A stretch of 64,000 nt of DNA, from contig NZ_CP019791.1 of assembly GCF_002007645.1 (NCBI RefSeq), positions 2,666,001 to 2,730,000 of the forward strand. The letters run 5' to 3'. Each line of letters starts with the position of its first letter. The stretch's first letter is position 1. Shown in pieces: positions 1 to 6,585 of this stretch. This stretch comes from Anaerohalosphaera lusitana. Lineage in GTDB: Bacteria > Planctomycetota > Phycisphaerae > Sedimentisphaerales > Anaerohalosphaeraceae. The position numbers and the translations under genes are program-made. The notes beneath the pieces are model-generated. The model ran no database searches. It was not told the DNA's origin and saw only the letters and a list, made by a program, of their open reading frames with translations.

Positions 1-1325
1 TCATCGCGGCGACGTTTGCTTTGACCTTCCTGCAGGATGCAGTGAGCGCGTTCCAGATCCTGCTTCTTTCCGGTGCCGGTACCGGTGCTATTTATCTGCT
101 CCGCTGGTTCTGGTGGCGGATCAACGCCTGGAGTGAGATCGCGGCGATGGTAGTTGCAACGATACTCGCTTGCTGGGTTGTGCTGGGCGTTGGTGACGAA
201 GGTACACTCAAGTGGTACGTAGATAATTCTGTAGTCGAAGACCAGGTTATGGCGATCCAGGACACTGACCTGGCTGGTGATATCTCGACGACTGTTGATG
301 AATCAAACGAGAAAACCGCCGAGCTCAAAGCTGATGTCGAGAAAAAGGTCGAAATATGGCGTGACGCTCGTGAAGAAAGCAAGCTTGCCAGGGACCGTGC
401 AAGATACAGATATGATGAGGCCCTGGATGCTCAACAGGCACACAAGTCTGAGCATACCACAATGGCACTTGTAAAGGCGGCAGGCGGTTTCAATTATGAC
501 TATTCGGTCAAACCCGCAAGTGAGATCGAAGAGCAGCTTAAAAAAGACGAAGCTACCTATGCAGAGGTGACCGGCAAGTTCGAGCAACTGCAGGATGCGT
601 ACACAGACGCAAACGCTAAACTTGCTGTCGCTGAAGACAAATACGAGGAAGCCTTGTTCTCGGTTGATGACTGGGACGCACCTGTTCTTGTAGAAGCTCG
701 TGACGCTTACAAGCAGGCTCAGAAAGATGCGGCTCAGGCTCGCAAGGATTATGACAGGTATTTCGCAGATTATGGCCAGACGACAGCTATTGCTCAAGCT
801 GATACTGAGATGCCGGCGTGGGGCGAATCGTTCCAGAAATTTGTCAAGGGCCACGGCGACGGCGTCAAAGCTGTCATAAAGAACGGCAGCGTCTATGTAT
901 ACGACTCCGCGATAGAAGGACTCGTATTCTCTGTAAAGCTGCTGTTTGTCGTAATAGTAGTTTCCATTTCGTGGATCATAGCGACGTTCGTTACTCCGGC
1001 AGTAGATAAGGAAACGCTGCGAAGCTTCTACAAGCTATGTCATCCGGGCGGTCCCGGCTGGAAGAAGGTCGTGGAAGATGCTCGTAAGGACGGTGTGGAG
1101 ATCGACGAGGTCAACGCAGTTGGCGACTGGAAGCTGCCACTGCAGATACTTTGTGTATTCCTTGGCTGCGTGGCGATCTACTCATGCCTGTTCTCCGTTG
1201 GTAACTATGTATACGGCAACGTCGTATGGGGCACAGTGCTGCTTGTTGTGACAATCATATCGACGATCATTCTGTTCAAGAGCTTCGGCAAGATGAAGTT
1301 CGAAGTAGATAAGCAGGAAGCATAA
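1..1325 (+). CDS. Sodium:solute symporter family protein, C-terminal part, with coiled-coil insert (5' partial)
   Basis: The reading frame is already open at the window edge (codons from base 3), so the TTG at 21 is probably not the start and the gene begins upstream. Two stretches are signatures of the C-terminal end of SSS-family transporters: LLRWFWWRINAWSEIAAM near the beginning and the FYKLCHPGGPGWKK segment near 1040-1075, each next to membrane helices. In ordinary relatives (family knowledge) these blocks are separated by a short loop and a helix. Here roughly 240 residues (about 200-930) lie between them, rich in Ala, Lys, Glu, Asp and Gln and predicted by eye to be a charged coiled coil. 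Two further hydrophobic helices follow near 1140-1290. It would import a sugar or related solute with sodium; the substrate is unknown. A terminator follows directly. Confidence 0.8.
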   Translation, partial: IAATFALTFLQDAVSAFQILLLSGAGTGAIYLLRWFWWRINAWSEIAAMVVATILACWVVLGVGDEGTLKWYVDNSVVEDQVMAIQDTDLAGDISTTVDESNEKTAELKADVEKKVEIWRDAREESKLARDRARYRYDEALDAQQAHKSEHTTMALVKAAGGFNYDYSVKPASEIEEQLKKDEATYAEVTGKFEQLQDAYTDANAKLAVAEDKYEEALFSVDDWDAPVLVEARDAYKQAQKDAAQARKDYDRYFADYGQTTAIAQADTEMPAWGESFQKFVKGHGDGVKAVIKNGSVYVYDSAIEGLVFSVKLLFVVIVVSISWIIATFVTPAVDKETLRSFYKLCHPGGPGWKKVVEDARKDGVEIDEVNAVGDWKLPLQILCVFLGCVAIYSCLFSVGNYVYGNVVWGTVLLVVTIISTIILFKSFGKMKFEVDKQEA

Positions 1326-2815: not shown

Positions 2816-2888
<73 letters not shown>

Positions 2889-2908
2889 TAAATGTAACTC
2901 TAGGCCAG

Positions 2909-4185
2909 TCAAGCACTTATGCGTGACTGGCTTTTTTCGTTTTCTCTCAAAACAGGGGTGTGCAACAGATTTGCAACTGAAAACTGCTGCAGAGCCTGCT
3001 TACTTGCACGCCTGGTACGGTCCACAAGGTCGTCAGAAACCGCCAGATAGAACTTCCTGGTGGTCTCAAAACTTGAATGACCTGCCATGTTCATCACGTC
3101 CAGTTCACTCAGCCCTGACCTCAGCCAGTTCGTCAGACACGTCCTGCGCAGATCGTGGAAGGTTGTGCCCTCGATGTCCGCCTGCTTGCAGATTCGCCGC
3201 CATTGTCTGTCAAAGTTGTTCAAGGGGCTGGTCCCATCTGTCTGCGACCAGTCACTGCCAGCACGCTTCTGCTGAATCGTCGCATAACGTTCTTGCGATA
3301 TGAACACATATGGCAGCCCATCGGGACTCTCTTCACGTGCAGTCCCCAGCAGCGTTACAAGCTCCTCAGTTAGAGGCAGGTTGCGTCTCTCGGCGTCTTT
3401 TGGTGTCCATGCCCCCATGCCCAGGTAGAGTCTGTATCGGCTTTCGGGGGGACTGTGGCGGTTTTGGCGTTCGTGTCGATATCCGACCATGTCAGATTCA
3501 ACAACTCGCCTCTTCTCATGGCAGTACCCAGCGCCATGCGGAGCAACAGATCCCAATCCAGTGTGCGACATTCGACAAAACTGTTCGCTGCCCTGAGCAA
3601 CGCGATTATCGCATCGCTGTCGAGTACATTGATCGACTGCGGACTGTATTTCGGCGTTTTGACCCACCTGAAGGGATTATCGTCAAGCTGGCCCCGCTGT
3701 ACGCAGAGCTGAAATATCCGCTTGATGTGCCGGATCTTCTTGGCTGCAGTTGCAGGCGTTTGCCCGTCATCAAGGCAGTACTGCACCAGGCGTTCGCCAT
3801 GTTCGTGACGGACAGACCGGTAGTCAATGTCTCCCACAGCTTTGACCAGGGTTTTCATCGCGCTTTTTGCTATCAGCATGCTGCTTTCCTTTACCTGACT
3901 TTGAGTCCGGGTCTCGTAGTCCTCAAACAGTTCCATCAGTTTCATCGGAAGCGATTGACGATCTCCCATTCTCAAGTGACGTTCGAGTCTGGCCCTTTCC
4001 TGTTCAGCCTTTCGCTTGGTTGCATGGCCGAGAGATTTCTGTCTGCGTTTGCCATCTTCATCGATGTAAATGAGATAATATGTAAAACTTTTGCCGTCTC
4101 TTGTACCCGATCTGCTATTAACGATAAGCTCTGGGTGATTACATCTTGAGCTTCTTTGGAGTCTTATATCACATTGTGACCAGTA
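2909..4185 (-). pseudogene. Tyrosine recombinase (phage-type integrase), frameshifted
   Basis: Two minus-strand reading frames (3370-3975 and 2909-3667) together encode one integrase. The N-terminal part has an AP2-like arm and core-binding domain, followed by the first catalytic Arg (TAMRRGELLNLTW). The second part has HDLRR, the GHSS box and the tyrosine in RKFYLAV, so all catalytic residues survive but in two frames. The break is an exact tandem duplication of CCATGCCC (3407-3414 and 3415-3422). Removing one copy joins STWAW directly to TPKDAERR. The frame also extends upstream of the Met at 3975 to about 4185 with convincing sequence (DGKSFTYYLIYIDEDGK), but I find no ATG, GTG or TTG start there, so the 5' end may be damaged too. 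It abuts tRNA-Ile2. Confidence 0.88.
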
Positions 4186-4423: not shown

Positions 4424-4960
4424 ATGAATAATGATAGCCAAAAAACTAATTCGGAACAATTTGTTGCCTTATTGGTGCCTAATCAGCGAAAGGTCCAGGC
4501 CTTCATCCTGATGTTGGTGCCAAACAAGACAGATGCTGATGACATTTTTCAGGAAACTATCTGTGAGATGTGGAACAAATTCGGCGATTTTCAGCCCGGT
4601 ACCGATTTCACTGCCTGGGCGGTGACAATAGCCAAGTATAAGGTGCTTGCATTTCACAAAAGGAAGAAAAATTCCAAACTGATGTTCAGCTCCAGGGTCA
4701 GTGACTTGCTTGCTTCAGTTGCCAGTACAAAAGTTGAAAGATTGCACGAGCATGTAGATGTTCTGCGGCAGTGTCTTGGCAAATTGTCCAAAAAGGAAGT
4801 GTTTTTGCTCAAAATGCGGTATGAGGATCAGTTGACATTCAAAGAGATGTCAGCACGGACAGGGAAACAGCCATCCGGCCTTCATCGCATGATGGCGACA
4901 ATCCATTCCAGGTTGGCTTTGTGTGTCCGCCGGACCTTGAGGCTTGAGGAGGTTTCATGA
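4424..4960 (+). CDS. ECF-type RNA polymerase sigma factor (module A)
   Basis: The 178-aa protein has sigma region 2 at about residues 20-85 (DADDIFQETICEMW, FTAWAVTIAKYKVL) and region 4 at about 108-168, a helix-turn-helix around LTFKEMSARTGKQPSGLHRMM. It has no region 1 or 3, as expected for extracytoplasmic-function sigma factors of the planctomycete/verrucomicrobial group. The next gene, a FecR-like membrane protein, overlaps by 4 bases (ATGA), so the two are translationally coupled. That is the usual sigma/anti-sigma arrangement. It probably directs transcription of the secreted-protein genes downstream. The ribosome-binding site is weak, so the start is the best available ATG, not a certain one. 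Confidence 0.9.
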   Translation: MNNDSQKTNSEQFVALLVPNQRKVQAFILMLVPNKTDADDIFQETICEMWNKFGDFQPGTDFTAWAVTIAKYKVLAFHKRKKNSKLMFSSRVSDLLASVASTKVERLHEHVDVLRQCLGKLSKKEVFLLKMRYEDQLTFKEMSARTGKQPSGLHRMMATIHSRLALCVRRTLRLEEVS

Positions 4961-6585
4961 GAGCTGATCCAAAATTGATGTACAAGGTCTCTGATCTGAC
5001 CCTCCGATCGTTGAATGGGACGCTGGATGAAAAAGGGTTGAAGTGCCTTGAGGGATTGCTTGAGACCAGTCCTTTGGCCATGGAGTACTATACAGAGATA
5101 GTACTGACGTATGTGGGGTTGGACGATAGCGAGGGTATTCTGGGACTTCAGGAAGCGGACAGGGTTTTTGACCGTGATTTATGGCAGGCCCTGGCTGAGG
5201 AAGAGCAGATCGCTCCTGCCGTTGTTTTAGAAAAGTCGGACAAGCAGACAGAAAAGACTGTTAGACAAGTAAGGCCGGTATCACGAATACATTTCAAGTC
5301 CAGGCGAACTGTGTCGCGGCTTGCTGTCTACACGCTTGCTGCTTCGTTAAGCGCGATCATGCTTTTTATGGTGATGATCTTGTTTACGTCTCCTCAACCG
5401 GATATCGCAGTCTTGACGGATTCGATAGACGCCGAATGGGAAGGATTCGACGGTTTATCGGTTGGTAATACGCTTAGAGAAGGCGAGCTGACACTGGTCC
5501 GAGGATACGCCGAGATTGAATTCAACGAAGGTGCTATAGTCACTCTTGAGGCCCCAGCCAACATAATCCTCGACAGTGAGCGAGAGATTACGGTTAATCG
5601 AGGAAAAGCTTATGCTTATGTCCCACCTGAGGCGGTTGGTTTTTCAGTGAGTACCCCCGCAAGCAGGGTTGTCGACCTTGGTACAGAGTTCGGTGTTGCG
5701 GTAGGGCAGGATGGAACCAGTGAACTGCACGTTTATAAAGGAGAAACTTTCCTTATAGCCGGGCGAGGCGAGGCCAAAAACACCCGCAATCTAAAGGCAG
5801 GCTCTGCAAGCCAGGTTGATTATGCTACAGGGAATGTAGTTGAAATGGAAATAGATGACTCTGCTTTTGTTAGAAAGATAGATTCGCAGAGTAATTTTAT
5901 ATGGGACGGCAGAAACCTGAACCTTGCCGATATTGTCGGAGGTGGTAAGGGATTTGGCGGGGGCAGGTTAAGACACGGCGTACCGCATCCAAAGAGTAAA
6001 ATTAAGCCTGGGCTGGAGGAAGGGTCAGCATATGTTTTGGTCGACAAGAATAATTTGATCGACGGAGTTTTCGTGCCTAACGGCGAAACTCAGATAAGTT
6101 CTACAGGTCTTGTGTTTTACGATTGCCCGCAAACCTCGGGATATGTTTACACTTCGGTCAGCTATGGTATGCCACAGGGAACCAGTGAGGATGATAAAAT
6201 GATGACGCTTAACGGCCTTGACTACGAGACTGAATCAAATCCTGCGATATCTATGCATGCAAACCTTGGTGTCACGTTTGATCTTAACAATATACGAACT
6301 GAAATTGGAAGCTTGGGAATTTCCGGGTTCAAAAGTCTTTGTGGAGTTGCTGACAGGGATGATACGGTAAGAAGTTCAGTTGGTTTCTACGTTCTGGTGG
6401 ACGGTGAAAAAAAATTCCACAAGCTAATTCCAGCGCAACAAGAGATCGCTGAAGTGGACATTGATTTGTCGCCTGATGATCGCTTCCTGACGTTAATAAC
6501 AACTGATGCCGGTGACGGTCAGCCTTCCGACTGGGCAATGTTTGCCGAGCCTGTGCTTGTTTTGGACGCTGAACGGCGAGAGTGA
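4957..6585 (+). CDS. FecR-domain transmembrane anti-sigma-like protein with NPCBM-like C-terminus
   Basis: The 542-aa protein has a cytoplasmic N-terminal helical region (about 1-115), one membrane helix at about 121-143, a FecR domain at about 165-275 (GELTLVRGYAEIEFNEGA, GFSVSTPASRVVDLGTEFG), and a C-terminal region at about 340-540. The last part resembles NPCBM/galactose-binding-like domains (NLGVTFDLNNIR, VLVDGEKKFHK, DRFLTLITTDAGDG). It overlaps the sigma gene by 4 bases. By analogy with FecI/FecR, the cytoplasmic end would hold or activate the sigma factor and the outer part would sense a signal. The carbohydrate-binding-like end suggests a glycan signal; that is inference. Module B carries a close structural counterpart. 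Confidence 0.85.
   Translation: MRADPKLMYKVSDLTLRSLNGTLDEKGLKCLEGLLETSPLAMEYYTEIVLTYVGLDDSEGILGLQEADRVFDRDLWQALAEEEQIAPAVVLEKSDKQTEKTVRQVRPVSRIHFKSRRTVSRLAVYTLAASLSAIMLFMVMILFTSPQPDIAVLTDSIDAEWEGFDGLSVGNTLREGELTLVRGYAEIEFNEGAIVTLEAPANIILDSEREITVNRGKAYAYVPPEAVGFSVSTPASRVVDLGTEFGVAVGQDGTSELHVYKGETFLIAGRGEAKNTRNLKAGSASQVDYATGNVVEMEIDDSAFVRKIDSQSNFIWDGRNLNLADIVGGGKGFGGGRLRHGVPHPKSKIKPGLEEGSAYVLVDKNNLIDGVFVPNGETQISSTGLVFYDCPQTSGYVYTSVSYGMPQGTSEDDKMMTLNGLDYETESNPAISMHANLGVTFDLNNIRTEIGSLGISGFKSLCGVADRDDTVRSSVGFYVLVDGEKKFHKLIPAQQEIAEVDIDLSPDDRFLTLITTDAGDGQPSDWAMFAEPVLVLDAERRE

Follow-up and report, generated by a model that had tools for sequence, protein, structure and literature searches.

Why does a predicted sodium/solute symporter carry a domain of 251 residues in a loop that is short in its ordinary homologues, and what might this domain do? 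The question is raised by the first gene of the analyzed window, i.e., the whole stretch of 64,000 nt from Anaerohalosphaera lusitana. The open reading frame (G000:C1:2664713-2667325; 870 aa) is a single frame without interruption and belongs to a genome of one contig, 4.25 Mb and 99.96% complete. Its 5' part (G000:C1:2664713-2666000) lies outside the window, and the features of the 3' part are as follows.

1..1325, + strand: SSS-family symporter gene, 3' part (last 440 codons and stop); open reading frame and SSF PF00474
48..101, + strand: TM11, residues 446-463, last helix of the LeuT-type core; hydropathy, loop charges, AlphaFold2 helix
138..185, + strand: TM12, residues 476-491, the modelled helix continuing beyond the membrane to about residue 502; hydropathy, AlphaFold2
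186..938, + strand: predicted periplasmic insert domain, residues 492-742, 251 aa; loop lengths, conserved ends, charge, topology
939..992, + strand: TM13, residues 743-760; hydropathy, AlphaFold2
993..1133, + strand: predicted cytoplasmic loop with a conserved PGGPGWKK block; alignment of 48 homologues, topology
1134..1277, + strand: TM14 and TM15; hydropathy, AlphaFold2

The family match assigns the protein to the sodium/solute symporters (SSS, PF00474, TC 2.A.21), and sodium coupling is predicted from the family. The Pfam SSF domain spans residues 65-480 (E 5e-31; 108.3 bits versus a curated cut-off of 22.8) and covers positions 1-404 of the 406 of the profile; NCBIfam TIGR00813 matched at 3e-42, yet under its cut-off. 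The relatives found by sequence in the PDB were vSGLT, SGLT1/2 and SiaT. The stretch AAYMSTIGTHLN contains the candidate Ser/Thr at the end of core helix 8, with M-S-T invariant across 38 aligned homologues, and we take these residues to be the Na2 site, assigned through vSGLT numbering. Translation most likely starts at Met31 (MLNGLDL), the position at which homologues begin.

The length of the loop from the end of TM12 to the start of TM13 was measured across 96 aligned homologues. An earlier note on this DNA had placed a long insert at 190-930, followed by a hydrophobic helix, where ordinary members have a short loop. All three points held: the insert was found at 186-938, the helix is TM13, and the ordinary homologues, mostly from Bacteroidota, have 9-37 residues at this site. 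Orthologues with 59–72% identity to the symporter over the transporter core mostly have the short loop. The nearest short-loop relatives have 17-18 residues, e.g., FVGDDAVATGLLDGFTVK, and the net gain is about 233 residues. By eye, the two ends of the short loop resemble those of the insert, and thus the additional residues were probably inserted in the middle of a pre-existing TM12-TM13 loop. A frame or assembly artefact was excluded as its origin, as the insert lies in one open frame of a complete genome and recurs in many other genomes. It yielded no match over the curated cut-off in Pfam or NCBIfam, and the best match to PDB sequences had an E value of only 0.31.

The N-terminus of SSS proteins is outside, and family members have 13-15 transmembrane helices (PMC7918813). 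Together with the count of 15 helices in the symporter, this topology puts the TM12-TM13 loop outside, so that homology and charge lead us to infer that the loop and its insert are on the periplasmic face. The net charges of the inner loops are +2, +4, +1, +1, 0, +1, -1 and +1, and those of the outer segments 0, 0, -1, -3, -1, -1, -21 (the insert) and 0, in agreement with this location, as is a paralogue whose corresponding loop holds a LamG domain. The earlier note had allowed for either side of the membrane; the periplasmic option stood, and the cytoplasmic one was rejected on the basis of the N-out topology and the charge distribution. The gating external loop of SSS proteins is located between core helices 7 and 8 (PMC7918813), and the insert is placed after the ten-helix LeuT core, away from this loop.

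Several SSS paralogues of the same genome were also inspected. The LamG-bearing paralogue (G000:C1:1514393-1517092; L014:1405-4104, + strand) has 900 aa, with Laminin_G_3 at residues 530-691 in the TM12-TM13 loop. It was the only full-length match among the matches listed (248 genomes); homologues with 44–54% identity, likewise among the matches listed, align only outside LamG. Three further paralogues, L007, L008 and L009 (G000:C1:3051691, 703994 and 4076760 regions), have extra segments of about 110-250 aa in other loops, by hydropathy TM8-TM9 in L007 and L009 and TM6-TM7 in L008. The segment of L007 had no Pfam match. In an SSS protein of 895 aa (L006; G000:C1:2173139-2174359 region), the N-terminal extracytoplasmic segment is kelch-propeller-like by eye.

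Alignments and an AlphaFold2 model divide the insert into a conserved base and variable hairpins.

186..263, + strand: conserved N-terminal base (GVGDEGTLKWYVDNSVVEDQVMAIQD), strand b1 at 246-257; two alignments, AlphaFold2
264..479, + strand: helical hairpin 1, helices 264-368 and 381-479; AlphaFold2 pLDDT ~85-96, alignment
516..809, + strand: helical hairpin 2, helices 516-662 and 681-809; AlphaFold2, homology among carriers
864..938, + strand: conserved C-terminal base, beta hairpin b2 (864-881) and b3 (888-905), then xxLxFSVK into TM13; alignments, AlphaFold2

The model covers the 440 residues in the window (residue 431 onward) at a pLDDT of 83.6, with few insert-bearing sequences behind it, and predicts a three-strand base at the membrane and two long hairpins. 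In model numbering, TM12 ends at 72 and is followed by b1 (82-85), the helices of hairpin 1 (88-122 and 127-159), a link (162-175), the next two helices (172-220 and 227-269), a short helix (272-284), b2 (288-293), b3 (296-301) and TM13 (302-330). The link between the hairpins has a pLDDT below 50. A full-length carrier (L051; 767-codon frame, 169-aa insert, 72% identical to the symporter) was modelled with a pTM of 0.86, and its model repeats the same base with one set of hairpin helices. The earlier note had assigned the sequence blocks that flank the insert to the SSS family and had named this as a point at which its reading could fail; in the L051 model both flanks align with SGLT2 (VIA-align Z 31.2, 506 aligned residues, 3.4 Å, model residues 3-720). 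Counting SGLT1, SiaT and vSGLT as well, the matches of this model to either flank reach Z 26-31.

The insert starts with the motif GVGDxGTLKWYVDSSxV..V..I.D and ends with IKGxxIYxYHPxxxxLKFSVQ, and its positions G3, G6, W10, V21, L246 and F248 are invariant across ten sequences. The ends are kept, and the helical middle varies. Three size classes were observed: 87-88 aa, which is the base nearly alone (Kiritimatiellales), 132-176 aa and 223-263 aa. By alignment, hairpin 1 occurs in the versions of 150-180 and 220+ aa; hairpin 2 is present in the planctomycete versions of 249-263 aa and is homologous among L002, L020, L021 and L170 (E 1e-9 to 1e-16). The description in the earlier note as a segment rich in Ala, Lys, Glu and Asp fits the measured values (14% A, 11% D, 10% E and 9% K; net charge -21), but it overlooked the three-strand beta base, and it is the base rather than the helices that is kept. 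Similarly, the proposed antiparallel coiled coil is borne out only in part. The modelled hairpins, whose absence the earlier note had named as refuting, are in favor, but there are two of them, and heptad periodicity is weak: the first helix alone stands out from shuffled sequences (54 of 2000 reached its level), and the other helices do not. A strict coiled coil was rejected on these grounds. Fold comparisons of the insert retrieved F-BAR, HlyD, MexA and CnrX at Z 8-9 (CnrX 8-8.6), which is what any helical bundle gives, and therefore these matches neither establish nor exclude a shared fold.

The profile of the insert matched 14 of 161 genomes from the symporter's order, in several families, with the insert at the same site; it is kept in related planctomycetes, which the earlier note had named as an outcome that would support a function. 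It also matched 8 of 346 genomes from the class of Pontiella and 3 of 288 in a wider sample of Verrucomicrobiota. The cultured Pontiella sulfatireligans has both a long copy (846-codon frame, L146/L175) and a short-loop copy (L069). A tree of the symporters was computed without the insert columns, with carriers defined as proteins with at least 75 residues in the TM12-TM13 loop. On this tree, 22 of 23 carriers fall on one side of a single branch; as its SH-aLRT of 83 is below the 95 mark, a single carrier clade is likely. The remaining protein, from Flammeovirgaceae (L055; 75 aa), was not accepted as bearing this domain and was treated as separate, because it sits elsewhere on the tree and was missed by the insert profile.

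Within the 22-member clade no loss of the base was seen, and the matched insert copies contained no frameshift or stop. Among 13 planctomycete members, the insert switched length class three times or more, and even sister species differ (L024 with 168 versus L170 with 251 residues). Between close carrier pairs, dN of the insert was 3-10 times that of the core. One pair with a 168-aa insert (L025/L162) gave a dN/dS of 0.04 for the insert versus 0.03 for the core, the former value being imprecise because the insert dS of 2.9 is near saturation; in most other carrier pairs synonymous sites were saturated. The insert evolves faster than the core, yet under constraint.

The genes around the carriers were used to address the substrate. 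They include a GH20 beta-N-acetylhexosaminidase (six loci that form a single blastp cluster, of which two were confirmed with Pfam), an epimerase, a glucosamine-6-phosphate deaminase (NagB; an equivalog match over the cut-off in Pontiella) and an APH-family kinase. The kinase presumably resembles N-acetylhexosamine kinases, an identity that no model confirmed. GH20 genes number one to twelve per genome in eight genomes searched, and a GH20 neighbour within 6 kb would by our estimate arise by chance at something like one percent of loci, as an order of magnitude. These genes adjoining its relatives suggest that the transporter imports amino sugars, namely N-acetylhexosamines of the GlcNAc/GalNAc type. 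Of 80 loci with homologues, mostly short-loop, 39 have at least one marker gene of the amino-sugar set nearby, so that amino-sugar uptake looks like a trait of the whole transporter group and does not account for the insert. Since the neighbours of short-loop relatives are of the same kinds, the insert would not define the substrate. No class of neighbour gene tracked the insert rather than the transporter, and no partner was found. A CBM9 protein encoded directly after the gene in four carriers was considered as a partner and rejected, as it has no obvious signal peptide by eye; one CBM9 gene near a short-loop relative weakened this reading further.

The symporter of the window itself is not part of an amino-sugar operon: an S13 carboxypeptidase gene lies upstream and a GH43-like gene downstream. 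Also downstream, an ECF-like sigma factor and a FecR-like gene occupy 4424-6585 (named by eye). Genome G004 keeps this gene order, from the S13 carboxypeptidase before the symporter to the sigma/FecR pair after it. In the comparison with G004, a tRNA-Met gene (2816-2888, + strand) that adjoins a tyrosine-recombinase-like gene in two overlapping minus-strand frames (3370-3975 and 2909-3667) lies between the symporter and this pair. The region 2816-3975 is probably a decayed integration site with an apparently frameshifted recombinase gene.

How might the insert act? The transporter is a 15-TM symporter that most likely carries N-acetylhexosamines across the inner membrane, by what should be the usual sodium-coupled alternating access. 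The clade would have gained an accessory domain in the periplasmic TM12-TM13 loop, outside the ten-helix core. The lengthened ends of TM12 and TM13 would bear the three-strand base, which seats on the transporter, and one or two hairpins would project into the periplasm as an arm that keeps a periplasmic partner, such as a binding protein or glycosidase, close to the transporter mouth. The stalk for a partner protein suggested in the earlier note would be of this kind. We tentatively regard the insert as a docking or tethering domain of this kind, which is a quite possible reading although the docking step itself is one that we infer; it suits best because the base is conserved and the arms are variable. 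The different hairpin lengths of sister species speak against it, as a precise docking arm might not tolerate them. So do the lack of a gene class that tracks the insert, the position of the window's own symporter gene outside an amino-sugar operon, the low-confidence link between the hairpins and the small number of insert-bearing sequences behind the model. A new periplasmic adaptor that links the symporter to one particular partner in the periplasm or outer membrane, joining sugar release and uptake in one assembly with hairpin length as its reach, is improbable in our estimate.

Alternatively, the insert could be a regulatory or sensing domain, with a base that binds a periplasmic ligand or ion or moves TM12/TM13 and thereby tunes transport or signalling. 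It would then correspond, on the periplasmic side, to the STAC-kinase modules that CbrA and CrbS carry in the cytoplasm, and SSS proteins with extra regulatory domains are indeed known (PMC7096432, PMC5715377, PMC7918813). Conservation centres on the membrane-proximal base with its (nearly) invariant G, W, Y and F, as in a functional site, and in the AlphaFold2 model TM12 and TM13 continue into it. However, these two helices lie outside the alternating-access core, STAC, PAS and kinase domains are absent from the symporter (the Pfam/NCBIfam search gave SSF only), and no sensor fold matched above the helical-bundle background, the metal sensor CnrX ranking with F-BAR and HlyD. A regulatory role seems rather unlikely.

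Two further explanations appear less probable still. Packing of the hairpins of two or more subunits, by which the insert would stabilize a transporter dimer or cluster, has against it the weak heptad pattern and a charge of -21 that is unfavourable to self-packing; the fixed base with its long hairpins, which vary in length, would suit it, and some SSS relatives have been solved as dimers (CHT1 and DUR3 structure entries), but we consider it doubtful. Equally doubtful is a tolerated, near-neutral growth of a peripheral loop without specific function. The several-fold higher dN and the repeated changes of length would be expected from it, and short-loop orthologues manage without the insert, including the second copy of Pontiella sulfatireligans, which is located beside a GH20 gene. 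Nevertheless, no loss of the base was seen within the clade, the motifs at both ends are kept over two phyla, the matched copies are free of frameshifts and stops, and constraint was near the core level in the single 168-aa pair with usable dS.

Planctomycetes and verrucomicrobia are known for the breakdown of polysaccharides. A conserved periplasmic domain in a nutrient importer of theirs would offer a handle on the link between sugar release and uptake, and the natural pair of Pontiella sulfatireligans, one copy with the domain and one without, makes its role testable. The SSS/SLC5 family has been studied extensively, and the domain additions that we found described for prokaryotic SSS proteins are cytoplasmic signalling domains (PMC7096432, PMC5715377, PMC7918813). 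No description of such a periplasmic SSS insert was found in the open-access literature, and the domain appears to be undescribed so far.

Compared with known systems, the symporter shares the Pfam SSF domain, the N-out topology and, on either side of the insert, the fold of the SSS/SLC5 sugar symporters vSGLT, human SGLT1/2 and SiaT (Z 23-31); these have no domain between TM12 and TM13, and the substrate of the symporter is deduced from neighbours. The short-loop Bacteroidota orthologues (about 600 aa) are about 57–72% identical to it over the core and, like the carriers, have amino-sugar genes nearby, but their TM12-TM13 loop has 9-37 residues versus 75-263 in the long-loop proteins. CbrA and CrbS (SLC5-STAC histidine kinases) likewise combine an SSS transporter with an added domain; there the addition is a C-terminal cytoplasmic STAC and kinase, whereas the symporter has an internal periplasmic insert and no kinase. 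The LamG-bearing paralogue of the same genome also has a foreign domain in its TM12-TM13 loop, but this is a Laminin_G_3 beta sandwich (4e-17), for which no sequence resemblance to the insert was noted.
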